From assembly GCA_963920705.1 (NCBI GenBank), contig OY987227.1:15401434-15465433 (forward strand): 64,000 bases of DNA, read 5' to 3'. Position numbers and translations under genes: made by a program. Within the stretch, counting starts at the first letter, position 1. Each line of letters opens with the position of its first letter. Shown piece after piece: positions 6,001 through 50,622 of the stretch. Under the pieces are notes generated by a model. It saw only the letters and a program-made list of their open reading frames with translations. It did no database searches and was not told the DNA's origin. Source of the stretch: Odiellus spinosus. Lineage: Eukaryota > Arthropoda > Arachnida > Opiliones > Phalangiidae.

Positions 6001-9000
6001 TAATTATCTATGTTTTTTCCTTAATTTTAATATTCCCTGACATTTTAGGTTCAATTATATTATTCCACGAGGGTTTTAGCTCTATTTTTACAATCTCCGA
6101 CTCGCTTCGACCTTTTAAAGCTCATTTTCAATATTACCCCGATTAATTTGGTTAAATTTTTACATTTCCTGACCATTTTAATTCAATAGTAATAATCTAG
6201 GACGTTTTTCGTTTATATGTCATGACTTTTTTTGTTCGATTTTAATATTCCCTGACCTTTTTGGCTCAATTTCTACTTCAACTAGGTAAATATAGAAAAT
6301 GCGTTTTTGGCGGAATCGATTTTGTAGTAAAAAGGGCAAGCAGCAATGACGTCAAAAAAAAAAAAAAAAAAAAAATGTTCAGCGAGTCATTTTATATATT
6401 TACCTATTTTATATAACCCCTGACCTTTTGGAAAACTTTTAAATATATACTATATTTAGGATATTTTTCGGCGAGCATTTTTTTCTCTAAGACACGTTGA
6501 TTTGGCTTTCAGGTAACTATAATAACGTCTAGAATCCAATTTTCTCTTGAAATTTCCCTTTCTATTGGAAACACAATTGAGTGGAACACTTTCATTGAAG
6601 ACAGAATTGAACAAGATGGTCAAGCCCATAGAATAGCTAGACCCATGACATAGTAAAAGAGGCTGAAAAGAATTATGCTATAGCAGGGGCTTGTTATGCA
6701 TGCATAAACGCTCTTTGAACAATTTGAATGGCGTTTCTAGATCCCTTTAAACACGAAGTTTTTCAAATCATGTTTTTCAAATCATGTTTTTCAAATCATG
6801 TTTTTCAAATCATGTTTTTCAAATCATGTTTTTCAAATCATGTTTTTCAAATCATGTTTTTCAAATCATGTTTTTCAAATCATGTTTTCCAAATCATGTT
6901 TTTCAAATCATGTTTTTCAAATCATGTTTTTCAAATCATGTTTTTCAAATCATGTTTTTCAAATCATGTTTTTCAAATCATGTTTTTCAAATCATGTTTT
7001 TCAAATCATGTTTTTCAAATCATGTTTTTCAAATCATGTTTTTCAAATCATGTTTTTCAAATCATGTTTTTCAAATCATGTTTTTCAAATCATGTTTTTC
7101 AAATCATGTTTTTCAAATCATGTTTTTCAAATCATGTTTTTCAAATCATGTTTTTCAAATCATGTTTTTCAAATCATGTTTTTCAAATCATGTTTTTCAA
7201 ATCATGTTTTTCAAATCATGTTTTTCAAATCATGTTTTTCAAATCATGTTTTTCAAATCATGTTTTTCAAATCATGTTTTTCAAATCATGTTTTTCAAAT
7301 CATGTTTTTCAAATCATGTTTTTCAAATCATGTTTTTCAAATCATGTTTTTCAAATCATGTTTTTCAAATCATGTTTTTCAAATCATGTTTTTCAAATCA
7401 TGTTTTTCAAATCATGTTTTTCAAATCATGTTTTTCAAATCATGTTTTTCAAATCATGTTTTTCAAATCATGTTTTTCAAATCATGTTTTTCAAATCATG
7501 TTTTTCAAATCATGTTTTTCAAATCATGTTTTTCAAATCATGTTTTTCAAATCATGTTTTTCAAATCATGTTTTTCAAATCATGTTTTTCAAATCATGTT
7601 TTTCAAATCATGTTTTTCAAATCATGTTTTTCAAATCATGTTTTTCAAATCATGTTTTTCAAATCATGTTTTTCAAATCATGTTTTTCAAATCATGTTTT
7701 TCAAATCATGTTTTTCAAATCATGTTTTTCAAATCATGTTTTTCAAATCATGTTTTTCAAATCATGTTTTTCAAATCATGTTTTTCAAATCATGTTTTTC
7801 AAATCATGTTTTTCAAATCATGTTTTTCAAATCATGTTTTTCAAATCATGTTTTTCAAATCATGTTTTTCAAATCATGTTTTTCAAATCATGTTTTTCAA
7901 ATCATGTTTTTCAAATCATGTTTTTCAAATCAAATATTTTATTTCTGACATACTCAAACCCAACACGCATAAGCTCCCTTATTATCTCGTTCGCGACGAC
8001 TTGTTTGTTGTTTTTGAGTTTTCATTACTGACAGACTAGAACCGAAACCTTCATAAGCTACCTTTTATCTCGTTCTCGACGACCCTTTATTAACAACGAC
8101 TTGTTTTCTGTATTGTATATCTATGAAGATATAAGGAGTTTTTCGCTAAAGTTTAACCAATTACCCGTGGTAACGAGGATGAGCGTCCAACTCTCGATCG
8201 CAAAGCTATGAAGCTTCGAGCGCGACGCGGTTTTTTCCGAAATTCGGGAGACCACTTGGTGGAAAATCGATATCTTAAAAAAAAATAGATATTTTAAATT
8301 TGTCTGGGACATCACGTCGTGACGTCTGGTGGATAAGAAACGAATGTTTTTTCGATACGATGACGTTTTTCGTCATTTCTGGGACACCGACTTCAGACTT
8401 CAGACTTCAGACTTCAGACTTCAGACTTCAGACTTCTGACTTCAGACTTCAGACTACCAGCACGACTCAAAACACTAGCTAGAACCTATACAAGTATAGG
8501 GTCTAGCTAAAAAGAGAATTCTCTCTTTCACTTCTATACATTTTCAATCTTCCAAATTAGTCGTTCGGTTTTCTATTCAAGTTTTAAATCATTAAATTCT
8601 TTCAACGTTCACGTTTGCAATCGATGACTGACTAAAAGTCGGTTGAGAAAGAGAGAGAAAAATATTTCTTTTGTTGAACCGAATCTTTTTAATGGGACCC
8701 GAAAAAAAAAGTACTTGGCATCTCACGATACGTTAATTTTTCTATTTTTCGTGAGTATTATAATGTATCTAGGTCAACTGGCGACGAGGCGAGAAACAAA
8801 AAAGAAATGGCGAGGGAATTATTAATATATATATTTCAAGTACTAATTGTTAGCTAGATAGCGAGATTCAATCTAGTAAAACAAGTTTACCAAAGAAAAA
8901 AAAAAAAAAAAGGTTTTCTTGTTTTTCTTTTCGTCAATTAATGGTTACTAATTTTGAAACTATTGTAGTGGTTGATAATTTGTACTATTTGGACATTAAA

Positions 9001-30547: not shown

Positions 30548-33500
30548 ATGGACGAGGTTGTGACCATAGTGACCGCTAGTCAGTCAAATAGCACCGTTTT
30601 TTGCGGACAGGGTCAACAAACTTGGCTTCTATCAATAGCGGCGACTTGCGCTGTCGGTTTAAGCGGTATCATACCATTAGCGATTATTCCAGTGGAAGTG
30701 ACGCAGAAAAGGAGCAAACTTGAAGGTAATTAAATTAATAAGTTAATTAATCCCGGGGTGTCACACTAACACGCTCCTTTGTTACGTTAGTTCGAAAAAT
30801 ACAATACAGTTACGCACTTAGCAAGATTAATTATACAAAATAAATTATTTTAAGGGTAAATTAGTTGAAATAACTTTCTAGAAGTATAAGCAGAAGTTTA
30901 CTACTAATATTAACTACATTTTAAACTCGAACTATATCAGTTTCAGCAATTAATAAATCATTTAAAATTCGGAAGGAGATTAAATTCTAGGAATTGAATT
31001 TTGAATTGACATTTCTTCTATAGTTTCAATTAATAACGGCGTTCATTAGGTGACGTCACATTAAAAATGAGTAGGGATAAAATCAGAATCAAGTCTTATC
31101 TCTTTTGAAACCAATGTATTAAGCTTAAAGATATAAGCAAATGGTATAAGAAAAAGCTTTGTACTATCTTTAAATATGCAAAATATTATTTTTCTTATAA
31201 TCTGATTATTTCTAACTGCATAGTTTAGGTTTGATATTGAAAAATTTAATTAGGACACACTCGTATCCCATATATCCCTTTCAACTATAAACGCAAACAA
31301 CCACCTACAGTTTGTTGTAAACGTTTTTATGTCGCGCTTTTATATATATTTAAACAGAACTAAATTGATCAAACACTATCCGAAGTCACGTTAAGTGCAT
31401 GCTATTGAATAGAGGGATGTAATGGTTACACGTTTGACAGTACTAAGGTCTATGGAATTTAAATATGGAGTGCCTTTTCCCTATCGATATTAAATGGGGG
31501 CGTAAATTTTCCCTAACCAATATGCCCTCGACACTGTCACACACAAGACCACTACAATTTTAGATATTTTATAGGTTTCTAGAACTTTTTCGAAATTAAA
31601 CAATTCGATATCATATTTTTGTCATTTAATTAATTTTAGGGGGAAAAAAAAAAAAAAAAAAATCAGACAAAGTTTTAGAATTTTCAATGGAAAATCAACT
31701 CCTAAACTCGCAGAAATAGGTTGGATGTATCAAAAATATAAATGGCAAGCGACCAACGGCAACGTAATATTTAATTTACATGTTATAGGCCGGTTTAAAA
31801 ATATAACAGTACGCTGAACGCCTACATTAAGCCTTGAGACACGATTTTGAAGGAAGAAAAAAAAAAAAAAAGATGAACGAAAGTCGAGAAAGTGAAATTA
31901 AAATCTCATCTAAGGACCTGTTTAGTAACAATAAAGTATAGGGCACTGAATTTCCGGATTTTTAAATAGGCAAAGTTTCATATAACCAAAAACGTATAAC
32001 TGGAATCATTGAAAGTTAAAATAGGGCATTAGCTTAATTTTTAAGATTAACAATAACAGAAAAAACTAAATTATTCAATAATTATTAAATGATTTATAGG
32101 ATCTATACGTTAACCGGCGAATTAACAATGAGTTGCGTTTAATAATTAGGTTTGGTTTAACTATTAAAGATAAATATAATAATACAGGAAGCGAAACGAA
32201 ACTTTCTTTTGAACGTTTGAAAAAAATATACTTCCGGCTTTTTATATTTTAATTTATTTCTAACAGTCCTAAAGATAGTTTTACTTTCTGGCAGATGAAT
32301 TGTTATACTTTTTTTAAAATCAATTATGATAAATGAATGTCACCTTCCGCGTTACCGACTACAGAAACTCTAAAACTGTTGCTTATAGTTCAATTAAAAT
32401 TTCAAACGAGTATTTTGGCACGTTTGAAAATGATTAATTCACACGATGCTTATCACGCGGCTAGCATCTAAAGGAATACCAAAATATAAGAATCCACTTG
32501 AAAGGGTAAAGATTCGAAAGTGGTTATACGCGAATGAACTTACAATCAGTCATCAAAAACCTATTAAAGGTTTATTTTGATTTTATCTTTCACTTGGATT
32601 TATCTCGAGAGGGAAGGGGGAGGTCATAATTAGTAAGAATCGTTTACTAAAATCAAATAAAACACAGGTAAATCCCTGTAATACAGCGTTATTTTAAACG
32701 AATTTTGTCAACGCTATCTTTATCTCTTATCGTTAAAAAGATATTGAACCCCCGTTAGAAAAACGGAGATTTATTTTCCCAACATTTCTTAAAGAAGCCA
32801 AGTTCACACTTATCAAAACTATAAATATAATTTCACCTAACATCCAAGTGTATTAATTCTAGGCAGCGTTTGACCTAATTGTTAATATTTTATAGTCATC
32901 TTCGATTCTAAATATATCCAAGCAACTTTGCTTATTACCCCTCAGTTTAAAGAAAACAATTTTTATGCCAAATTTTGCACAACAGTTCGGTATCTTATTG
33001 GTTCCCCCTAATTTACACCCTCCTAACAAAAATTACGAAACAAAGCTGAGAAATTAAACTCCAGGGCCCCAATTCTATCTCTGAATCAGATTAATTTAAT
33101 TATTGTTAAAATTGATTGTAAGGTTAATAAATACGTCTATCAACCTTTTAATAATTCCCAACGATTGGTATTTAAATTATTTTTAATCGATTTAGACTGT
33201 TAAAATATCAGTAAATTCTGTATCAAAACTCAGCAAAGGTTTCGCTGCAGTTTACTGTTAATTATCAAACTAGGCTCGTTAAGCCTACATCCGTTTCGAA
33301 GAAAGTTAAGACTAGAAAAATTCTCTAGAAAATTCAATTGCTTTAACCAATGAGATAACGTATAAAAATGGCGCGTAAACTAATTTAACTAATTGCTATT
33401 TCTAACAAAAATCTCATTGGATTCACGCACGAAATCTCATTGGCGTCATCAATTGAGTGCTTTTGAAATGTAAATTACTTCGAGCCTAATTTAACAACTT

Positions 33501-37425: not shown

Positions 37426-38998
37426 TTAAATCCGTATTTTCCGCAAGAGTTTAAGTTCATGCGTTAACCAGACTGCGGTAGACAAGAGTGTCAAAGCACC
37501 AGCTTGGTGACAGGCAGCCAATGACTTCGGAACGTAAAGAAGCAATGTCGCGATGCCCATCCCCACCTAATTCGTACAAAGATTTGGAATTCTGGTTTTT
37601 ATATCGAGCCAAATCTTATCTTCCTTTTCCTAGTACAAAATTGAACGTACCTGAACCATTCCTACAATCATCATAGCATTGGCAGCCATTCTCGCTCTAT
37701 GGGGAAGTGGAAGCTTCCTAGAGTAAAGCCATAGAGCAGTTACAGCGCAGAAAACTGTTTCCCCGAGAATTCGATGATCGAATTGAACTGTGGTGGGGTT
37801 TTCGGTGAAATTTCTAAGTTTTGGTTCGAAAGCTAGAATGTCCGATGGTATCCAACGGTCTGCCATTTTAGGAAAAGAATTGTAGACTAAACCAGCTTCC
37901 AATCCAGCGACAAATGCTCCTAGTTTTTATAATAAAATATATGTTAAACCAAAGTTTTACAACTCTGAATTAGTTGTTAAAAATTACCCGAAAATGCAGT
38001 TAAAAAGATAATTGATTTGGTTCCATGAGCTAATTTCCAAAAAAATTTCATTTGTTTTGAGATTGGTATCTAAATATAATAAAAATTAAGTTACAAAAGA
38101 TTTCATAGTAATGTGCAATAATTTAAGAATCTACCTCTTGAGGAGGGAAAAGGTGGCTCAATCCAGACCATAAGAGTAGACTATAAAAGACGAACGCAGT
38201 TCCTAAATGAGCAGCCAGTCTATATTGACTAACTCGGGGTTTGGAATTTGGTTCATTTTTTTCTTCCAATCCACTTTTAACCATGTACCATCCTAATAGT
38301 CCTTGAAACGCCAACAGCCCCCCAAAAACTAGGATTCTGGGTTTCATAGCTTTACTAAACCAACCTTTGTACCAAAAAAATGTAGCTGGTAAGTAGTAAA
38401 ATGCTCCTATGGCTCTGCCCCAACTTCGATGAACGTATTCCATCCACCAAATCCATTTGAACTCATTCAGAGTCATATCTTGATTTGTTCTAAGTTTAAA
38501 GGAGAGCTTCAACTTGACTTCAAAAAGACTACGTCTTTTCTTACATTTTGTATTCCGGAAATTGCTGATATTTTGCAAATTCAGCTTCCCATTGAGCATT
38601 CGTTCTAGGAGGAACTTCTTTGAAGAGGTGCCAGTCCACCATGGAAAGGCCCGATTTAGTAAGCCTAGTTGTACCACCGAGAACCACTGTACCAAATACC
38701 ATACCACCACAAGTCAAAAGCCACCTTCCTACCCATTTTTGACCTTTAATTGGCACTTTGAGTGTCTGAGGAGTAATTGCATGACTAACGCTTTGACGTA
38801 GGCATGTCTGCAAACATTGTTAATGCTTTTCCATCACAATTTACCCAAAGGTTTCATTAGAAAAATCATACGAACCAAGTTTGAGGGAAATGTCTTTAGT
38901 TTTGAGGCGAATGTGCTTGGTGCAATGATCTTTCTGTTATTGCAAGATTTCAGGCTCGAACAATGTGTCAATCGTAACGAGTATCTTAGAATATTCAT
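37426..38998 (-). CDS. COX15: COX15, heme A synthase
   Basis: Mitochondrial inner-membrane enzyme converting heme O to heme A for cytochrome c oxidase. Six exons in phase: 38876-38998, 38545-38807, 38135-38489, 37988-38069, 37651-37919, 37426-37566, giving 410 residues, the same length as I know for the human protein. Residues 1-41 look like a transit peptide (basic, Ser/Thr-rich, no acidic residues). Family blocks follow: [95 protein letters not shown] and [10 protein letters not shown]. The conserved heme-ligand histidines in EYVHR, AAHLG, FDHR and CHQAG are all present. Exon 1 ends at a weak donor (TTG|GTTCGT), the only in-phase choice; a GTTCGT donor is also used in the STK32 gene here. 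Introns are 55-68 bp except the larger 3' ones. Convergent with ZIP13. Confidence 0.95.
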
Positions 38999-39119
38999 AT
39001 TCACCAGTTGGCGTAATAATAAGCCCTAAAATGTAAAGTTACTTCGTCGATGGTCCACGTCCAACTTCTAACCAGTAACAATTACACAAGGCATATTTTA
39101 TCAAAAATTACCGGCTTTT

Positions 39120-39362
39120 GCTGCAAAAGTTTTGCACACTTTCCGGTTTACCGGAAACATCAAAGGAAAAGTGTTGTTTGGCTTTACGAGTTTTACAACA
39201 GGGCGGCTGCTGGCGAGCGCCGAGCTCCGTTTGGTTTACCATAGCCTCCTCGATCACGCGCTTCGGCTGCGCTCGCGCTATAGAAGCCTCGGCAATCGGC
39301 CGAAAATCGCGAATAAATGAATTCTCGAGATTTACAAAACTCCCCCAAACTGATGCACGTCT
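39120..39362. repeat. GC-rich repeat, copy 1 (inverted with 40940-41070)
   Basis: GC-rich segment containing CTCCTCGATCACGCGCTTCG. Its reverse complement, CGAAGCGCGTGATCGAGGAG, occurs at about 41037-41060, with flanking similarity (TTTGGGGGAGTTTT...) over roughly 120 bp. Overlapping open frames on both strands are by-products of the high GC content. Element class not identified. Confidence 0.65.
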
Positions 39363-40234: not shown

Positions 40235-40490
40235 TTGAAAACAGAGTTGTCCCGAATAGACGATAACATAAATTCCGACTACGTCTCAACCTTGAAAAAA
40301 TGTCCCATCTTCCGTATAAACGGGTTCTATTTAACGGCTCTTTTTGTTAGTTTCAAGGCTGGAAAAAGTATAGAAAATCCTACACTTTGTACCAGCCTTG
40401 AAAAAAGGGACCATCTTCAATACAAACGGGTGCTTTTTAACGGTTCTTTTATTCGTTTCCAAGATTATTTTATAATAAGGTCTATTACCC
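40235..40490. repeat. ~230-bp repeat, copy 1, internally duplicated
   Basis: Direct repeat of 41101-41340. Shared blocks: AGACGATAACATAAATTC, TCAACCTTGAAAAAA, AAACGGGTT/TATTTAACGG, TTGTTAGTTTCAAGGCTGG, AAAGTATAGAAAATC, and AAACGGGTGCTTTTTAACGG. Each copy is itself a dimer of a unit with CTTGAAAAA...ACGGGT...TTTAACGG.TCTTTT...TTTCAAGG. No protein reading; class unknown. Confidence 0.75.
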
Positions 40491-40939
40491 GGCTTCAAAA
40501 TTTAGTAATTTCTCTCTCTTATCAATTCTCACAATTGCAACCTTATTAATTTTAACACTTGTTTTTGAGTAAAATAGTATATTGTCATAGAATAAAAATC
40601 AAATCAGAGAGTGAAATTAGAATATAAGTTTATAAATAGCATCTACAGCGAGACTGCAGTGCCTGTGTTAATGGATCAAGGCTTTAGATTTAAAAAGAAC
40701 CCCGCGCAATAGGTGAAAACCGCAAAAAGCTCCGTCAGTAAAGAAAAATAATAGGTTCGCTAGTTTCAACAATTATTAACGCCAAATCTGTAATTCTCAA
40801 AGGCTTGGAATTAATTTGTAAATTATCCGTACATACTTAATTAGATGTGGTTAAAAAATCAGGAAGCTGGAGCGTAAATTTAAAACTTTAGACAAGAATT
40901 TGTTTCTCCCCTCGACTTTCCCCCCCTACATTTTAGTGC

Positions 40940-41070
40940 TTTTTCGCGCCGTCTTTTGGGGGAGTTTTAATTTCCCATTTATTCTCTCAAACACATGTTA
41001 ATTTTTTTCTTTGCCGGGGCTTCTAAAGCGCGAGCGCAGCCGAAGCGCGTGATCGAGGAGGCTATGGGTT
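40940..41070. repeat. GC-rich repeat, copy 2
   Basis: Inverted partner of 39120-39362: GGCTTCTAAAGCGCGAGCGC, then AGCCGAAGCGCGTGATCGAG, then GAGGCTATGG. The two copies are about 1.7 kb apart and bracket the foldback element and the first 230-bp repeat, so the region may be one composite insertion. Confidence 0.65.
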
Positions 41071-41100
41071 TACAGAGGATTGGCTCAGGGTCCGTTTACT

Positions 41101-41340
41101 TGGGTTGGGCAGGAAGATAGACGATAACATAAATTCTGACTTCGTCCCAACCTTGAAAAAAGGCAACATCCTCGGTAGAAACGGGTTTTATTTAACGGTT
41201 CTTTTTGTTAGTTTCAAGGCTGGCAAAAGTATAGAAAATCTTATACTTTGAACCAACCTTGGAAACAGGCAACATATTCGATACAAACGGGTGCTTTTTA
41301 ACGGCTCTTTTATCCTGTTTCAAGGTTATTTTATAATAAT
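41101..41340. repeat. ~230-bp repeat, copy 2
   Basis: Direct copy of 40235-40490, starting at AGACGATAACATAAATTC and ending at AAGGTTATTTTATAATAA. The two copies differ by scattered substitutions only. Confidence 0.75.
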
Positions 41341-41369
41341 TCAGTTTAATTTAATTGTTATTTAAATTA

Positions 41370-41520
41370 ACCTTATTTAGAGATTAAATTCAATTTATTT
41401 TAATGATTAAATGAACCTATTTGAATGCTTAAATAAACCTTATTTAAATGATTAAATGAACCTATTTGAATGCTTAAATAAACCTTATTTAAATGATTAA
41501 ATGAACCTTATTAAATTGAT
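41370..41520. repeat. 45-bp tandem repeat, about three copies
   Basis: Unit of about 45 bp built from two similar halves: AATGATTAAATGAACCTATT and TGAATGCTTAAATAAACCTT. Copies run directly up to the region in front of the three-gene cluster. Confidence 0.8.
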
Positions 41521-41608
41521 TAACCAACCCGAATAAACGGACCATGAGCAGGAAAGCTTAGCTCGTGACGTAACTATTTCGTATTATGACGCAATCGTAG
41601 ACCTTTAA

Positions 41609-41662
41609 AGGTGACAAGGTCACGTCAGAGCATATAGCGGATTTCTACTAACCTTGACGTCA
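41609..41662. promoter_or_regulatory. CRE and orphan-receptor-type sites upstream of the three-ORF cluster
   Basis: About 120-170 bp upstream of the CEBPZOS-like ATG lie ACAAGGTCACGTCAG (an AAGGTCA extended half-site running into an ACGTCA half-CRE) and a full palindromic CRE, TGACGTCA, at 41655-41662. AAGGTCA is the ERR/SF-1-type half-site, often found at mitochondrial genes in animals. Assignment is by motif only. Confidence 0.35.
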
Positions 41663-41778
41663 GAGAGCCAACTCCCAACTTCCCAAGAAGGTAACAATTT
41701 GTCCAAATATTCATGTCATCATTTAAATATTTCTAGTGAGGTAAATTCAATTTGTTTCATAACAGATATGTATCTATA

Positions 41779-42060
41779 ATGTTGAAAAAACGACCTCAAT
41801 ATAATTTTTTTCGGGGGTTACCGAAAATTCAAGGAAAAACTTACACCATCGCCAAGGCACTAATCGCCTTCGAACTTTTAGGACTTCTTGGGTCTTATTT
41901 CGTTTGGAACCGCCTTAATCGCTCCGAAAATTTCAGGAAAACAATTCACGGATACAGCCCAGATATTTTGAATTATTTTTATACCTTCGGTGAGAAATTG
42001 GGAACAACTGGTATGCGGGAGCGTGATATGAAAACCTGGGGAATCGAAACACGAAAATAA
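41779..42060 (+). CDS. CEBPZOS: CEBPZOS-like small mitochondrial membrane protein
   Basis: Intronless ORF of 93 residues. The first ATG of the frame is at 41779; the frame is open further upstream but without an ATG. It matches what I know of vertebrate CEBPZOS (80 residues): an N-terminal single membrane segment (AKALIAFELLGLLGSYFVW, about residues 25-43), then RSENFRKTIHGYSPDILNY, then a C-terminal GEKLGTTGMRERDMKTWG block comparable to the EKSGMYGIRELDQKTW end of that family. The biochemical role is not established; vertebrate members are annotated as mitochondrial. It is the first of three ORFs on one strand: 27 bp separate its stop from the next ATG, and no intron, poly(A) signal or promoter fits in that gap. 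Confidence 0.85.
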   Translation: MLKKRPQYNFFRGLPKIQGKTYTIAKALIAFELLGLLGSYFVWNRLNRSENFRKTIHGYSPDILNYFYTFGEKLGTTGMRERDMKTWGIETRK

Positions 42061-42087
42061 TCTAAAAGACTACAAAAAACATTATTC

Positions 42088-42321
42088 ATGTCTCTGGGAA
42101 AAGCTCTCATCTATTCAACAATCATAATTGGCGGGGCGTACATAGCCAGTACTTCTTTATCACCTACTCCTGAACAATTCAAACAAAAATACAGCAAAGC
42201 CAAACCAGGATTTCTATCAACTAATGAGAAACAAAAGCAAGATTTCCTAAACGCCATAAAGAACAACACTAATATTAAACTAAAGCATTCTACTACTACT
42301 AGTGAAAACAAAGACAAATAA
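42088..42321 (+). CDS. UQCC3: UQCC3/CBP4-like complex III assembly factor
   Basis: Intronless ORF of 77 residues with the form of the UQCC3/CBP4 family: a short N-terminus, one membrane segment (about residues 5-24, KALIYSTIIIGGAYIASTSL), then a conserved-looking STNEKQKQDFLNAIKNNTN region preceded by TPEQFKQKYSKAKPG, which resembles the TPGE-RRK...EMLKE...REEA...LLLATL pattern of UQCC3. Family role: inner-membrane assembly factor stabilising cytochrome b in the bc1 complex. It sits 27 bp after the CEBPZOS-like stop and 10 bp before the TBCC start. Small proteins of this kind diverge fast, so another single-pass mitochondrial protein remains possible. Confidence 0.7.
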   Translation: MSLGKALIYSTIIIGGAYIASTSLSPTPEQFKQKYSKAKPGFLSTNEKQKQDFLNAIKNNTNIKLKHSTTTSENKDK

Positions 42322-42331
42322 AATTTGAAAG

Positions 42332-43240
42332 ATGGAAGATTTTACTAAAGATGAAAATGGTTTCAGCGTTAGTGAACAGATTGATCGTTTCATCGCCTTG
42401 TTCAACAAAAAAAGAATCAACGTGGAAAATAACCTATTAAAAGCGGAACAAATGGATAAAGATAAATTGGCTTCTCATTTTGACGTTATTAGCGATGATA
42501 TCCAAAAAATGCAGAAGTACCTCAATGATTCAACGGTGTTTCTACCTTATTACAACCAAAAGGTAGCCCAGGAATCCCTTAAAATCCTCCACGATAACAC
42601 CGTGACAGCTCGAGCAAAATTAATGCCTAAAAAGAAATTTACTTTCAAGAAAAAAACCTTACAAACTAAATCAGCCACTAATGATACTGTAGACGCCCTA
42701 AAAATATCAATGGATCATCTAAAGAAAGAAATTCCAAGCTGCTACATAGAAAATGGATTTAAGGATAGAAAAAATGAAAATTTGGAGCTGAGAGACAATG
42801 TCAATCGCAAAGATGTTGAGATGAATAACTTAGAAAACTGCGTGATCAAAATCTACGCTACTCCAAATACGCTGCATATGAGTGACCTTAAATTATGCCA
42901 AATTCTCGTAGGACCAGTCACAACTTCAATATTCATTGAAAATTGTAGGGATTGCGTTTTCGTCGTAGCTTGTCAGCAATTGAGAGTGCATTCTACAACT
43001 AAATGCGACTTTTATATTCACGTGACAAGTAGAGCTATAATTGAGGATTCAGTTTGCTTGAGGTTTGCCCCTTACACGTGGCTGTATGATGATATAGAAC
43101 GTCATTTTGAAATATCTGGACTAGAGCGTGGAAAAAACAACTGGAATGCCATTGATGACTTTAATTGGTTATCAGCAGATATACCGTCTCCAAACTGGTC
43201 AATTTTAGAAGATAGCTCTAGGAATAAATTCATTAACTAA
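42332..43240 (+). CDS. TBCC: Tubulin-folding cofactor C
   Basis: Tubulin-specific chaperone C, which with cofactors D and E stimulates GTP hydrolysis by beta-tubulin and releases assembly-ready heterodimer in the cytosol. Single-exon ORF of 302 residues. Residues 10-95 are a charged helical N-terminal domain (spectrin-like in the family), 96-165 a basic linker, and 170-290 the beta-helical C-CAP/cofactor C domain: VGPVTTSIFIENCRDCVFVV, then ACQQLRVHSTTKCDFYIHVT, then SRAIIEDSVCLRFAPYTW. The catalytic arginine finger of the QLRVH motif is present (R218). The start is fixed by a strong context (AAGATGG), only 10 bp after the UQCC3-like stop. An AG lies immediately before the ATG (TTTGAAAG|ATG), which would serve as a trans-splice acceptor if the organism uses one. 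The poly(A) signal may be ATTAAA near 43327. Convergent with RRP5; stops are 152 bp apart. Confidence 0.96.
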   Translation: MEDFTKDENGFSVSEQIDRFIALFNKKRINVENNLLKAEQMDKDKLASHFDVISDDIQKMQKYLNDSTVFLPYYNQKVAQESLKILHDNTVTARAKLMPKKKFTFKKKTLQTKSATNDTVDALKISMDHLKKEIPSCYIENGFKDRKNENLELRDNVNRKDVEMNNLENCVIKIYATPNTLHMSDLKLCQILVGPVTTSIFIENCRDCVFVVACQQLRVHSTTKCDFYIHVTSRAIIEDSVCLRFAPYTWLYDDIERHFEISGLERGKNNWNAIDDFNWLSADIPSPNWSILEDSSRNKFIN

Positions 43241-43343
43241 AAAAATACATTTTGTGGTAGAAAATTATAAACTAATTCGAATTTAGACTGTAATGAAAAG
43301 CACTAAAAATTGTATAATTATTCGTCATTAAAATTAACATTAG

Positions 43344-43349
43344 TTTTAT
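43344..43349 (-). terminator. Poly(A) signal for RRP5
   Basis: TTTATT on the plus strand is AATAAA on the minus strand, 44 bp after the RRP5 stop codon. It lies within the likely TBCC 3' region, so the two 3' ends overlap or abut. Confidence 0.5.
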
Positions 43350-43392
43350 TTTTGAAATGATTTTTAATACATACGAGGAACTATCCTAAATT

Positions 43393-46300
43393 TCACGTTG
43401 CATAATTTGAAGTTTGAACGTATTCTAGAGCTTTCAATTTGACTTTATCAACATTTTCCTCAGTCCCGTGTTCTTTCTCAAAGTCCAGAAACTTTTTGAA
43501 AACGAATTTCATTTTTTTCAACGGTAGAGTAGAGGATGATAGTTTCTCCAAATTTAGCCTGAATTTTATTTTAAATTGACATAATTTTTTTTTTAATTTA
43601 TAAAAGGAAAACTTGAAATATTACCTGGCTTCGTCAATTTCTCCATGTTTAATTAGTACGTCAATAAAAACTGACCAAATATCTGTTCTTTTAGGATAAT
43701 TATTAAGCACATTTTTAAATAAGGTTTTCCCCCTTTCTGGATCACCGTTACTAAATTCCATTTGGGCAAATTTAGAAATGATGTCAATATCTATTAAGAA
43801 TAAAACCAAATTAAAAGTTTTTCATCTATGTTAGGAAATTGTTCTTTATTTCTTACGATGTCTCTTATCCAAGCTATTAAAGCTTCTTTCCATCAGTTTT
43901 CGAGCCTGCTCAGGTTTTTCAATTTTCATATAGAAGAGCCCAAAATCAGTCCAGACCGTTGGGTCTTGGCGATACTTTTTAATAATAGTTTGATGAAGTT
44001 CTTCAGCTTCTTGGATCTTTTCAGATTCCATATAAATCTTGATCATTTGTCTGTATATTTTGAGGGGTTCATTGACTTCCAAGGCTTTAGAGAAGACGTC
44101 CTGTAATGATTCTTGGGTTCCGTACATACTTTCCAAATTTAGGAGCGAGAACCAAATATTTAGTTTCTCATTTTCCTCTCGGAATGAGATGGTTTTTAAA
44201 GCTCGTTGCGCTACGACTCTAGCCTTGTCAATTTCAGTTTGTTGCAAATAAAAAGCCATGTATTTCAACCAAACCATAGAATTATCAGGTGATGAGAGTA
44301 TAAGTCGCTCAAAATCATCTATAGTTTCGGGAATTCTATCCAAATCCATAATTCTTTCCTCTTGCTACAATTAAGTACAATTTAAAAGTAAATATTAATT
44401 TGTATTATTCGCTGCCTTAAATAATTCCTTATTAATTCTCATACTTTTCTTAGTTTATCTTCCTCTTCTTTTTGTCTTTCCCCCTTCTTTCTTTTCTTCC
44501 TTGGACCTATATCCGTATCATCTTCATCTTCATCGCTACTGGATGACTCTTGGTTTTGGTTCAACTGGGCTAAAGTTGATAAGTTTGGAGTTGCGTCTAT
44601 GTTCCAAGCGAAAGATTCGTTAATTTGAAGTCTGGGAATGTTGTCCTTTTCTTCAGAGATATCTTCTTCGTTTAGGATGGGCACACTTGATTTCATTAAA
44701 AATACGTTTAATAATTTCTTAAATCAATACACCCGTATTTAAAATCAACTACAAAACTTACTCTATTGTAGAAATAGCAGGTTTAACTGGCTCGTCAAGT
44801 TTTTTTACTAGTTTGAGATCGTAGCCCTTTTTCTTCACAGTTATTACTTGCACTTTAACTTTGGACCCAGTTTTTAGGTTGTCTACTCCAGCTTGAATTG
44901 TTGATTTGGTTATGATACCTACCCTCTTTGGAGCCAACTGAACAAATATAGTGCCTTTCTTCCAATACAGGACAGTTCCTTCGACTACATCTCCAACAAT
45001 AAATTCAGTTTTGACAGTCTCCTTATTTTTTGACTCTTTTGCTTCCTGAGTTGGCTGGTCTAAAACTTCGACCAAGCTAACTCTAATGTCACCATTGTTA
45101 ATGTCTTCAATTTTTACAGAAAGCTTGTTACCTATCGCTAGATTCTTGCATTTTTCTAGAAGAGAAAAATATTAGCGAGAATGTTCAATAAACCAGATGT
45201 TGGACCAATATTTTACCTGGAAGTTCATTTTGTAGAAGAAAACCAAATTTATTATCGCGAAATTTGACGAAAAGTTTCTTTTTGTTGAAGTGGGAAATAA
45301 CTCCGTCTAAGATCGTACCAACATTTGATTTATTTTCATCTAAAGTAGGAACTTCAAACTCAATTTCATCCTGCGTGATATTTTTTATCCGGAGGTTTAC
45401 TACCTCCCCTGTCTTCGTAATATCCTGGTTGCTAACTGATATGAAATACAAGTTACGTATAAGTCACAATAGAAAAATAATAAAATGAACCAAAAGAAGG
45501 CAAATATACCAATAGTATCTTCAATCCTAAAAAAGCCAGTTTTATGGGAATCCAATTCAACGTAAACCTTTCCAAGAATGCGTCCTGAAATTGTGCCTTT
45601 AACTTCATCACCAACTTCAAGACCTTCTACTAAGGAATCTCGTTTCCCATTTGTTATTTCTTCAATCACTGTTATTACTTTGTCAGAAACAATAGCTTGA
45701 GTTTCCTCATTCGATAATTTGCTCGTATCTTTTATGAGTTTCTTCTTTGTTGATATTTGGGCATTAGTGATATCCAAAGCTTTCCTCTTTGAGGGCGATT
45801 CGGAAATAGTTTTGTCTGAAAGTTTCCTCTTCAAATCTTTCTTTAGAGGTGTTTCCTTGCTTCGTAACATTTCATATTCTTTCGACGCTTGTAGTTCGTG
45901 ACTCTCCAAGATTCCCATAACGTACCTTTCTTTCTTTCTACGAATTAACATACGAGTTTTCTGACCAATTGAGTATAAATTTCCAATCGTATCATTCGGA
46001 TGCTAAAATTAAATGATGATATAAATTACTTAGTCTTCTAATCGCCGGTGCAAACACTACATCATTAACTTACTCTTTTAACGGGCAAATAAGCGAGAAT
46101 GCCGTAAGCAGGGTCTAAAAGGGATGCCAAGGCAAAATGCTCCCTAACCAAAAGAATTTGACATTTTTGAATAGATCCTTTCTTAATCTGATTCAGTATG
46201 GTGCTCTTATTAGCCTTCAGAGACAGTTTGATTAATCGATGGCAGAGAGACAGTTCAACGCAATTATTGTTAAAATCAACGTGCAAAACCATGGCTCGTA

Positions 46301-49300
46301 TTTTATCCCCTTGCGTAGGAATTAAAGCTCCAATATTATTGAGTACGACTATGCCTTGAATTTCAGAATCCACAAGTTGACATAAGCACCCTTCTTTCGT
46401 TACCTTAGTCACTTCAACTTCAACTATTTGTCCAGTTTTAAGAGAACCTATGTTACTTGGGGAAAGGTCAGCGATACGACTCCAGTCAGCCATATAAGAT
46501 TCCAAATTATCAAGAGCAGGTTTCCAGGGTTTCGTTTTGGGTAAAACGTCTAAGAGTCTACTGGAAAGCTCAATTCGTACAGATCCTTTATGATCTTGAA
46601 GTCTTAGAACCTTTACGATTAAAGACTGATGCGTAACTAAACCAGAGAGACCCGGGTTTTTAACTGTAGAGTTCGCTATTTTCTGCGAAATAAAACAAAA
46701 TTTAAATATAAAATTTTATAAGAGATTCTAATACAGTAAAACCTCGTTATAATTTAATTCTGACGGAAAAGAACTATTTCGTTATATTCTTAAATTAGTA
46801 TAGTTGCTAGACCTTGGCTTTGCAGCTGAAGTATTGGGTCACTGGTTATAAGAAAAAAGCAACTTTTCTTCAAATTGTTTCATTATAATTTATAACCAGA
46901 GTTAAAAATGAAAGTTAAACCTTAAGGTCACTGGTTATAACAAAATAGGAGTCTAAATGATATTATTTAGCTATAACCAAATTTCATTATTATAAAAGAA
47001 GTTTTTTTCAGGTATGGCTAATGTATGTGGCGAATCCAAAAAAGTTTTGTTTTAAGGAATTTTTCATTATAACGATTAACAAGGTTTTACTGTATTGTAG
47101 CAGGTAAAGAAACTTACACTCTTATGTACCAATCCTGTTACATTGTTTCCCATTTCAACCAGAATGCCGTAAGTCATGAATCCTTTAATAACGCTTGGTA
47201 GAATAGTACCTTCTTGAACTTGGGAATATTGGAATACTATTTTGTTTTTGGCAGCGGCTTTCAGAAACATGGCTTTCATTGTACATATCTTAATTTTGAG
47301 TTAAGAAGGATAAATTTTAAAAAGATTATGTTAACAAAAGTTTGAATAAAAGGATACAATAACTCCTTTAAGGCTGAAAATGCAAGCTTTCTCGATTGTA
47401 TTTCCAATTTGGAAACGTTCAAGGATGAGTTTGCACAAATGAGGATGATCCGAAAGATGCATCGTAGGAATGAAAGCTCTCAGTTTATCTTCCGGGACTA
47501 AAACATCTAATCCCTTATCAGTTTTCCCCGTTATTTCGAGCGAAACGATATCTCCCACTTTCAACTTGGTCGATTCAGCCAAATCTTTTTTGCCCATTGT
47601 TTTTCTAGTCGTTAGCTAATAAAGAATCGCGTATTAATTACTTTAACAACTTCTGAAAATTCACATTCTAGAGGCTTACTTTTAATGATAATCTCATTTT
47701 ACGGGTTATAATAGAAACATCCAAAATGCGGCACTTTACAACTTGGCCCAAATAAAACAATTTTTCAGGATAATCAACAAAACTGTTGCTAATCTCGGCC
47801 ACAGGTACCCAACCCTTGAGATAAAAAGAGGTTAAAAACATTCTAAATTATTAAATTTAATAAAGAGAGAAGATTCTTACCCAGATATCGTTGTAAAATG
47901 ACACTAAGAGGCCATTACTATTTATTCTAACAACAAAACCATCCGCAATCATTCCCGGCGTTACGCTGTCCAAGGTAGTTAAAGGAGGAAGCTTAGAGTT
48001 GACCAAAGTTTTCTTTGCGGTCAAAAAATGAGACGTACCACCTTCTTTCCTATCTAATTTAAGAACCTAAGGAATCATTTTAACGTTACTTACTGTAATA
48101 AAGTTTTAAAATAAAGATGAAAGACTATAATGGTTCTGGGATAATTGTCAAATGATAAACAGAATTAGGAACAATCTAAGTAATGAGGAATTATTGTAAA
48201 AAGTTAAGGAGGGAAAACCTTGCAGCAGATGAAGAGTGCGGTGGACTGGAGGTAATCCTTTGCTATTGGAAAAAAAATGAAAATTTTTTTATTTACCCTA
48301 CAGGTTATTTCTCCTCCCACATGGAAAAGTTTTTCCGGATGAGTGATCGGGATATCGGACATATGAGTAGGGTCAATAAATCCTCGAACGTAGAGACCCA
48401 GTTTGACATGGATGCCTTTGCTATCAACCTTTTGCACGACTCCTTTAACAATATCGCCAGCTTTTATGGACTCATTCTCTATGAAAGCTTGCTTCAAAAC
48501 TGATTTTTTAAGTGACACCTTAACTATTTTATCCATGTAGCTAAAAGAAATAACTCGACAAGGGACTGTCTCTCCAACCGAAAGAATCTCAGTGGCATCG
48601 CTAACTTCCTGATCCGAAATATGTGGATTCTATTGATGATATATTAGGATTAGGTTGACAGATTAATATGATCGCTGGATTTTGTTTCAGTAACAAACCT
48701 TAACAAACCCTTTGACAGTTTCAGATAGTTTCAGATAAACCGAATGAGGATGAACTTCAATGATTTTGGCATCTTGTATCTTGTCACCAATTTTTATATT
48801 CTCGAACCTTGATTTAATATTCTTTGAAGATGGTTTCGGTAACAATGACATGTGAATGACCTGGGACACTGGATGCTTAAATAAGACCAACGCTTTCATC
48901 TAAAGATAATATAGACAAAGTTTTATAAGAATTAAAATTACATGTAGCTAAAATAAAAGGTACCTCTTGACCGAGTGGATACTTTCGAGGATCATCAAAT
49001 GAGTTTGTTAGGTTATTTTTGTGAATACAACCATTGTAGGCTAAACACCTGATGACTAATCCATTGTGATTGGCTTCGGTAATAATAATAGGAAGAGTCA
49101 TCCCGGGTAGAATAGTTTGGAGAGTAACTTTCTCGGAAACATCAACCTCAAACCCTTTTTTCTTCGTAGTAAGAGTTATGGTTCTTCCTTCTAAGGGGTT
49201 TTCATTCAGCTCTGGCATGTCGACAGCCAAATGCAAGATTTCCCCCACAGCCAACAATCTACCCTCATTAACTTTCTGGATATGATGCGAGGCATTTTTT

Positions 49301-50210
49301 GTGCTAAGAAAACCACTCACTCCAATTATTCCCATATCTATGACGTACCCGTGGCCTTCTACGCTTGAAACGGCTCCTAAAAGAACCTACAAAGCAATTT
49401 TAATTTACTTAAAAAAAAAATACCCCACGACTTGTTAGTTAATTTATTTCATTACCATTCCATGATATATAGATGATGGAACTAGGTCATCGTTGATGTC
49501 TTTAGGATTGATTGACAATTGTATTTGGGCTTTGGCTCCACTTTCAGTGACTGAATAGTTCATTATTTTAACAGGATAGCAATCTCCCACTTTAAATAGG
49601 TTTGGCATAGTCACTAAGTTATCTTCAAAGTTTTCGGGATCTTCCGAGTAGTTTTTTAAAAGCTCCACATAGCTAGTGGATGTGTTAGTTACGGGTACGG
49701 TTCCAAAAATACCCCCTGGTAACGAGAACTCGATACTATAATTGAATACTTTGGTGATACAACCCAAAACGACGAGACCTTGGGCAACATTCTATAATAA
49801 TACCCTCTTTTAAGAATGTAATTTATTTTTAAGATAGAGAGTGCTGAGTGGAGGACCTCGAGCCTAAGGACCCATTACCTCACCACTTTCGGAAATAATA
49901 CGTACCTGGCTATTTAGAGTATCGATGACAACCACATCTTCATCATCTTCTATTTCATCTCCCTTTCTTTTCCTTGATTTACTTTTACTCTTTTTCTTTA
50001 CTGATTTTTCAACAGGGGCCTGACGAAAACATTTATATTTATCATTTAAGGAATGCCTATTCCCTATTTTCCTATGGGCCGAATCGGCCCGGCCGATTGT
50101 TATTAATTAAGCCTTGAACTTACCCGGAAAAGATCTTCATTCGTTTCAGCTTTGTTAGACTTAGAAAAAGTCTGCCTACCACCTCGAGGAAAACTTATTT
50201 CGCTCGCCAT
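43393..50210 (-). CDS. PDCD11: RRP5 homologue (PDCD11), pre-rRNA processing factor
   Basis: Nucleolar S1-repeat protein required for both 18S and 5.8S/ITS1 processing. Eighteen exons, all in phase, total 5040 bp and 1679 residues: 50124-50210, 49906-50019, 49456-49791, 48964-49386, 48699-48899, 48297-48629, 47881-48066, 47680-47814, 47358-47615, 47118-47288, 46074-46682, 45510-46002, 45217-45435, 44762-45155, 44445-44685, 43857-44364, 43625-43790, 43393-43558. Residues 1-67 are a basic/acidic leader (KKKSKSKSRKRKGDE); 68-1320 hold about ten or more S1 domains (for example GLYVRGFIDPTHMSDIP, GWVPVAEISNSFVDYPEKL); 1321-1400 an acidic then basic linker (SSSSDEDEDD, PRKKRKKGERQKEEE); 1401-1679 HAT/TPR-like repeats ending MKFVFKKFLDFEKEHGTEEN...KALEYV. 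Intron 10 carries a pogo-like MITE. The exon 9 donor is uncertain by 6 bp. Confidence 0.95.
46734..47092. mobile_element. Pogo/Tc1-type MITE in an RRP5 intron
   Basis: A 359-bp element with ends CAGTAAAACCTCGTTATAAT and (inward from the right) CAGTAAAACCTTGTTAATCG, flanked by TA on both sides. CAGT..AACCTCGTTATA is the typical pogo/Tigger-type end. Internally, TCACTGGTTATAA occurs twice. No transposase fragment was seen, so it is non-autonomous. It lies entirely in RRP5 intron 10. Confidence 0.85.
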
Positions 50211-50622
50211 ATTATATGTAGCTAATTTATAATTACTTTCTAAATACAATTCAATTATTCCAATCTGAATTAGAGAACTTCATTACACACGTGGGTCACC
50301 ATCATGCACGGCAAGCAGACGACGACGTCTAATAGAACAACATCGCTGCCAGATATGTAGAAATTCAATATTTTTGTGTTGTCCAGCCCCTACAATTCAA
50401 AAACCGCAAAATTCAAATTCTAAAAAGTAACGTGGTCAATAAAGATGTTAAAATTTAATGAAAAAGTCAAAGCTCCAAGCTTCAAAGCGTATAATTGATA
50501 CGCAATCAATTAAATTGTGTATTATTTTTCATTATAAATATTATCATTTTCTTAAAAAGGTTTACAATTTCTGGAATAATATAATTATTAATTAAAATCA
50601 ACGAGCAAAGCTTAGTTTTTCG

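Follow-up and report, generated by a model that had tools for sequence, protein, structure and literature searches.

An insect tricistronic mRNA, described by Kanamori et al. in 2010, reportedly yields three proteins by context-dependent scanning. The main text of the FlyBase survey (Crosby et al. 2015, PMC4528330) lists 159 dicistronic pairs along with seven tricistronic sets and two tetracistronic ones, so a tricistronic unit as such is not exceptional. According to the same text, ORF spacing at loci with only polycistronic transcripts runs from -34 to 319 nt, small polypeptides are over-represented at polycistronic loci, most Drosophila dicistronic pairs fail the requirements for scanning, and use of internal ribosome entry sites (IRES) may be common. 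Neither tubulin nor TBCC is mentioned in that main text or in that of Hayden and Bosco (2008, PMC2276209) on the conserved-peptide upstream ORFs of Drosophila, another close known system. In Drosophila sloth1/sloth2 (PMC9681215), two small single-pass mitochondrial microproteins are encoded by one mRNA with a 5-nt gap between them, and leaky scanning is supported by reporters. Leaky-scanning bicistrons of two green algae are stated to have median AUG observed/expected ratios of 0.49 and 0.48 before ORF2 (PMC11892635).

The locus described here lies within a 64-kb stretch of animal DNA, referred to hereafter as the window, and consists of three adjacent ORFs: two microproteins followed by tubulin-specific chaperone C (TBCC). 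As at the FlyBase loci, the ORFs are neighbors on one strand with short spacing, and the two gaps (27 and 10 nt) fall within the range given above. The small ORFs resemble sloth1/sloth2 in size and membrane topology, whereas the fly pair has no third, large ORF in the account given and its proteins differ by name. The algal loci may share with the trio a scarcity of AUGs before the last ORF and a better start context on that ORF, but they are algal, have two ORFs, and their AUG deficit is a statistical one over 36 and 43 loci. A search of article texts returned no paper on this trio, none that names at least two of CEBPZOS, UQCC3 and TBCC, and none on tubulin-binding cofactor C as a dicistronic gene. 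The trio thus probably adds to the known animal polycistronic loci, a kind of arrangement familiar from fruit flies.

Three adjacent reading frames

On the plus strand, ORF1 (93 aa) occupies 41779-42060, ORF2 (77 aa) 42088-42321 and ORF3 (302 aa) 42332-43240, leaving gaps of 27 nt (42061-42087) and 10 nt (42322-42331). These coordinates agree exactly with the original prediction, which had described three intact same-strand ORFs, each with its own ATG and stop, at this spacing. ORF1 and ORF2 are in the same frame and a single stop separates them, with none further in 42061-42087. In the whole window, 64 ORFs that begin with ATG and are 60 aa or longer gave four adjacent same-strand pairs with gaps of at most 60 nt; two of the four make up the trio, one consists of pieces of a PDCD11-like gene and one (38823-39244) is unexplained. 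Since close pairs also occur elsewhere in the window, the case for the trio rests on its TBCC and CEBPZOS matches and not on ORF length. Chance could produce a pair of ORFs, but hardly a trio in which one member is a TBCC of 302 aa and another matches CEBPZOS.

ORF3 is a complete, intronless TBCC, as had been proposed. It matched the Pfam families TBCC (3.8e-40) and TBCC_N (7.5e-21), and its alignment with the solved TBCC 9m1m (1.2e-66) spanned residues 14-298 of the 302-residue query. TBCC is thus encoded by one uninterrupted ORF. With TBCC as the sole query, no relatives of the locus were found in viral and prokaryotic contig collections.

The CEBPZOS-like label given to ORF1 was also borne out. 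Compared with one human CEBPZOS sequence, this single-pass membrane microprotein scored 139 over 64 ungapped residues, a score reached by none of 3000 shuffles, and the tail alone scored 91 (0/3000). The match takes in the membrane helix and a C-terminal KTW block, and ORF1 stops six residues past the conserved KTW, much like the human protein. The codon use of ORF1 is not coding-like, being equalled by 10 of 33 null ORFs, which are what remains of the 64 ORFs once 31 in listed gene or repeat ranges are set aside. ORF1 is not identifiable as UQCC3 (score reached by 856 of 3000 shuffles), and paralogy of ORF1 and ORF2 is likewise unsupported (474 of 3000).

A single hydrophobic stretch spans residues 6-24 of ORF2, as expected of a single-pass membrane microprotein, and the codon score of ORF2 exceeded those of all 33 null ORFs. 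Pfam listed nothing for it up to E=10, and its matches in the PDB were poor (best E 0.22). The earlier UQCC3-like label did not hold: in comparisons with one human UQCC3 sequence, the score was reached by 78 and 76 of 3000 plain shuffles, by 361 of 3000 shuffles that treated the transmembrane segment separately, and by 294 of 3000 for the tail alone. PIGBOS1 scored higher, at 45, reached by 0 of 3000 plain and 7 of 3000 segment shuffles, but with the tail alone 534 of 3000 shuffles did as well, and SMIM20 was rejected at 562 of 3000. CEBPZOS, used as a control against ORF2, scored 41 (14, 12 and 15 of 3000 shuffles; 68 of 3000 for the tail alone), which indicates that shared membrane-helix composition strongly drives such scores. 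The CEBPZOS-like ORF1 and the ORF2 microprotein are presumably mitochondrial.

Promoter, leader and 3' end

A putative single promoter lies upstream of ORF1 at 41566-41662. It carries three TGACGYMA-type sites, presumably CRE/ATF-like, at 41566 (TGACGTAA), 41587 (TGACGCAA) and 41655 (TGACGTCA), and a CGTCA half-site at 41623. The window contains nine TGACGYMA sites, and these three, the sole cluster among them, are 124-213 bp upstream of ORF1; for a motif picked after the sequence was seen, the probability that three of nine uniformly placed sites fall inside 89 bp is about 4e-4. The densest TGACG/CGTCA cluster in the 64 kb is also found here, with 5 counts inside 130 bp, a single palindrome supplying two of the five. 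Within 300 bp upstream of the ORF2 and TBCC ATGs there is no TGACGYMA, and none of TGACGYMA, TATAWA, the initiator TCAKTY or a TCT-type motif occurs between the ORF1 and TBCC starts. A core-promoter scan of 41400-42332 found no TATAWA or TCT-type motif and a single TCAKTY, at 41719, upstream of ORF1; the plus strand of the window has 92 TCAKTY matches. In a self-comparison covering 40800-43400 (E up to 1e-4), repeats were confined to 41011-41516, so that neither the putative promoter nor any of the three ORFs recurs in the window.

Splice acceptors were scored with a matrix made from 12 hand-chosen junctions among the 17 exon junctions of the PDCD11-like gene, five unclear ones being left out. 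Several of the 12 were ambiguous (48630, 47843 and 45371), and the ranking favored C or T before AG. Scored by leave-one-out, the reference acceptors ranged from -1.5 to 7.8. On this scale the leader may contain a 75-nt intron on the plus strand at 41691-41765 (AAG/GTAACA ... CATAACAG/A), with 7 of 9 donor matches and an acceptor score of 1.27, better than 3 of the 12 reference acceptors.

According to the original prediction, the gaps between the ORFs were too short to hold a poly(A) site. An AATAAA at 42317-42322 does overlap the ORF2 stop; what stands is that cleavage downstream of it would land in TBCC. Other motifs of this type are an AATAAA at 43223, inside the end of TBCC, and ATTAAA at 42274, 42436 and 43327, among others. 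Because the coding end of the PDCD11-like gene converges near 43394, the transcript is expected to end at approximately 43.24-43.4 kb.

How the trio may be read

For ribosomes to reach TBCC by scanning, six AUGs would have to be bypassed, the first at 41768 and the last at 42224, or seven if an unspliced leader retains that at 41713. The AUG at 41768 opens an upstream ORF of three codons (M-Y-L-stop, 41768-41779), the stop of which overlaps the ORF1 ATG (TAATG). Four further AUGs lie between the ORF1 and TBCC ATGs: two in frame (42013 and 42028), the ORF2 start, and one at 42224, which is the sole out-of-frame AUG in ORF1 and ORF2 and begins an 8-codon ORF (42224-42250) that ends 81 nt before the TBCC ATG. 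The AUG observed/expected ratio from the ORF1 start to TBCC was 0.58 (0.35 without the two starts) and that inside TBCC 1.31; the leader, with two AUGs, showed no deficit (1.05). Across the window, 17% of stretches of 550 nt were equally poor in AUGs. Synonymous shuffles of ORF1 and ORF2 gave means of 1.04 and 2.27 out-of-frame AUGs compared to the one observed (P 0.73 and 0.23). The encoded peptides alone thus suffice to account for the deficit upstream of TBCC, and selection against AUGs in ORF1 and ORF2 is unsupported.

Start contexts, graded by eye from positions -3 and +4, were intermediate for ORF1 (A/T), weak for ORF2 (T/T) and strongest for TBCC (A/G). With its A at -3, the ORF1 start is not clearly weak. 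The upstream AUG at 41768 and both AUGs in frame within ORF1 (42013 and 42028) carry G at -3. Reinitiation is predicted to fail beyond 55 codons, a figure derived from one viral mRNA (PMC4705651), and since the first ORF has 93 codons, leaky scanning is favored over reinitiation.

We consider it fairly probable that the trio is a tricistronic nuclear mRNA read mainly by leaky scanning. From the arrangement of the sequence we infer a shared transcript, a scanning mechanism and translation of ORF2. One promoter upstream of ORF1 (approximately 41.56-41.70 kb) would drive a transcript of about 1.6 kb, which may lose the 75-nt leader intron and would end past TBCC. Of the ribosomes scanning from the cap, part would start at ORF1 and others would leak to ORF2 or go on to TBCC, the start with the best context of the three; ribosomes diverted into the 8-codon ORF that opens at 42224 could take up scanning again 81 nt ahead of TBCC. 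Leaky scanning with local reinitiation would be the favored mechanism; the FlyBase statement that most Drosophila dicistronic pairs fail the requirements for scanning counts against it. The original prediction had left two options, an operon resolved by spliced-leader trans-splicing or a single mRNA translated through leaky scanning or reinitiation. A shared transcript remains the best fit to the spacing and the second option appears the better one, while the spliced leader is disfavored.

The splice-acceptor scores bear on two of the alternatives. The AG at 42331, which closes the 10-nt gap directly before the TBCC ATG and had been proposed as a trans-splice acceptor, scored -2.41, under all 12 reference acceptors, and the AG proposed before ORF2 (42068) scored -0.77, exceeding just 2 of the 12. 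A spliced-leader operon should have a good 3' splice site directly upstream of each downstream cistron, and the proposed AGs do not provide one. Its tight spacing is reminiscent of the operons of the tunicate Ciona (median gap 1 bp), and a better-scoring AG exists at 42194, but spliced leaders are reported to be absent from insects (both from PMC7986045) and no Rfam family reached its gathering threshold in the window, outside of which a spliced-leader gene could sit. We therefore regard such an operon as very unlikely. The same AG at 42194 (6.01, ranking at the 96th percentile among the 3425 AGs on the plus strand) and that at 42285 (4.02, 90th percentile), both inside ORF2, suit a different reading in which the ORFs are carried by separate or alternatively spliced mRNAs: transcription would start for TBCC inside ORF1 or ORF2, or the donor at 41691 would be joined to an acceptor in ORF2, and TBCC would come mostly from the shorter mRNA. 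Monocistronic transcripts often accompany polycistronic ones, as the FlyBase main text states (PMC4528330). However, no TATAWA, TCAKTY or TCT-type motif lies between the ORF1 and TBCC starts, and with an acceptor model built on 12 hand-chosen sites, even a 96th-percentile AG is weak evidence. Separate or alternatively spliced mRNAs are unlikely.

Other alternatives concern how a single mRNA would be read. The upstream ORFs might be mainly a regulatory array acting on TBCC, with ORF2 not a selected protein. ORF2 indeed lacks a Pfam match, a convincing PDB match and a clear family among those tested, but the strong CEBPZOS match of ORF1 and the codon score of ORF2, above every null ORF, argue against this, and we hold it to be quite unlikely. 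Ribosomes might instead enter internally at TBCC or ORF2, a route that according to the FlyBase main text may be common at such loci (PMC4528330). The RNA of the two junctions, taken as stretches of 91 and 121 nt, folded no more strongly than shuffles (z -0.02 and -0.45) and the leader showed no structure (z 0.78). An unstructured or further-upstream IRES is still compatible with these values, and we assign internal entry a very small probability. Fusion of ORF1 and ORF2 into one protein, by stop readthrough or through a sequence error, would suit their common frame and a 27-nt gap free of other stops, but ORF1 ends just past the conserved CEBPZOS C-terminus and frame sharing is a one-in-three event, which makes fusion extremely improbable.

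At this locus, annotation restricted to the longest ORF would miss both microproteins and assign approximately 550 coding nt to the leader of TBCC. A bolder proposal, which we think rather unlikely, is that the tricistronic unit, perhaps old and conserved in related animals, uses graded leaky scanning to couple the amounts of two mitochondrial-type microproteins to that of a tubulin-folding chaperone, and that ORF2 represents a so far unnamed microprotein family. If conserved, the locus would be a compact system for testing how the relative output of three proteins is set on one animal mRNA, and it would link mitochondrial-type microproteins to microtubule assembly.

Neighborhood of the locus

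The convergent minus-strand gene that supplied the 12 reference acceptors (43394-50300, limits approximate) has S1 and HAT/TPR repeats by Pfam and is presumably PDCD11/RRP5-like. The original prediction had called every other gene in the window intron-rich. The check covered this gene only, and there the description applies: 9 of the 12 chosen introns are 60-86 nt long and the rest 114, 230 and 435 nt. Pieces of ZIP, COX15 and kinase genes were also recognized in the window, the sequence of which is AT-rich, with short introns and a CpG observed/expected ratio of 1.10, which together give it a somewhat insect-like look.

Several repeats were noted. A 45-bp tandem array at 41395-41508 stops just short of the putative promoter, and an interspersed repeat is present at 40256-40478 and 41117-41339 (87% identity across 223 bp). 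Far from the trio, 6758-7932 holds 84 copies of the 14-mer GTTTTTCAAATCAT in a near-perfect array (99% matches) that is open in all three forward frames. The unexplained close pair at 38823-39244 consists of plus-strand ORFs of 68 and 64 aa with a 20-nt gap, just past the opposite-strand COX15-like ORFs, and is probably due to chance. Outside the recognized genes, a plus-strand ORF of 61 aa at 30548-30730 was coding-like in codon use, with the top score among the 33 null ORFs, 0.11 bits per codon.
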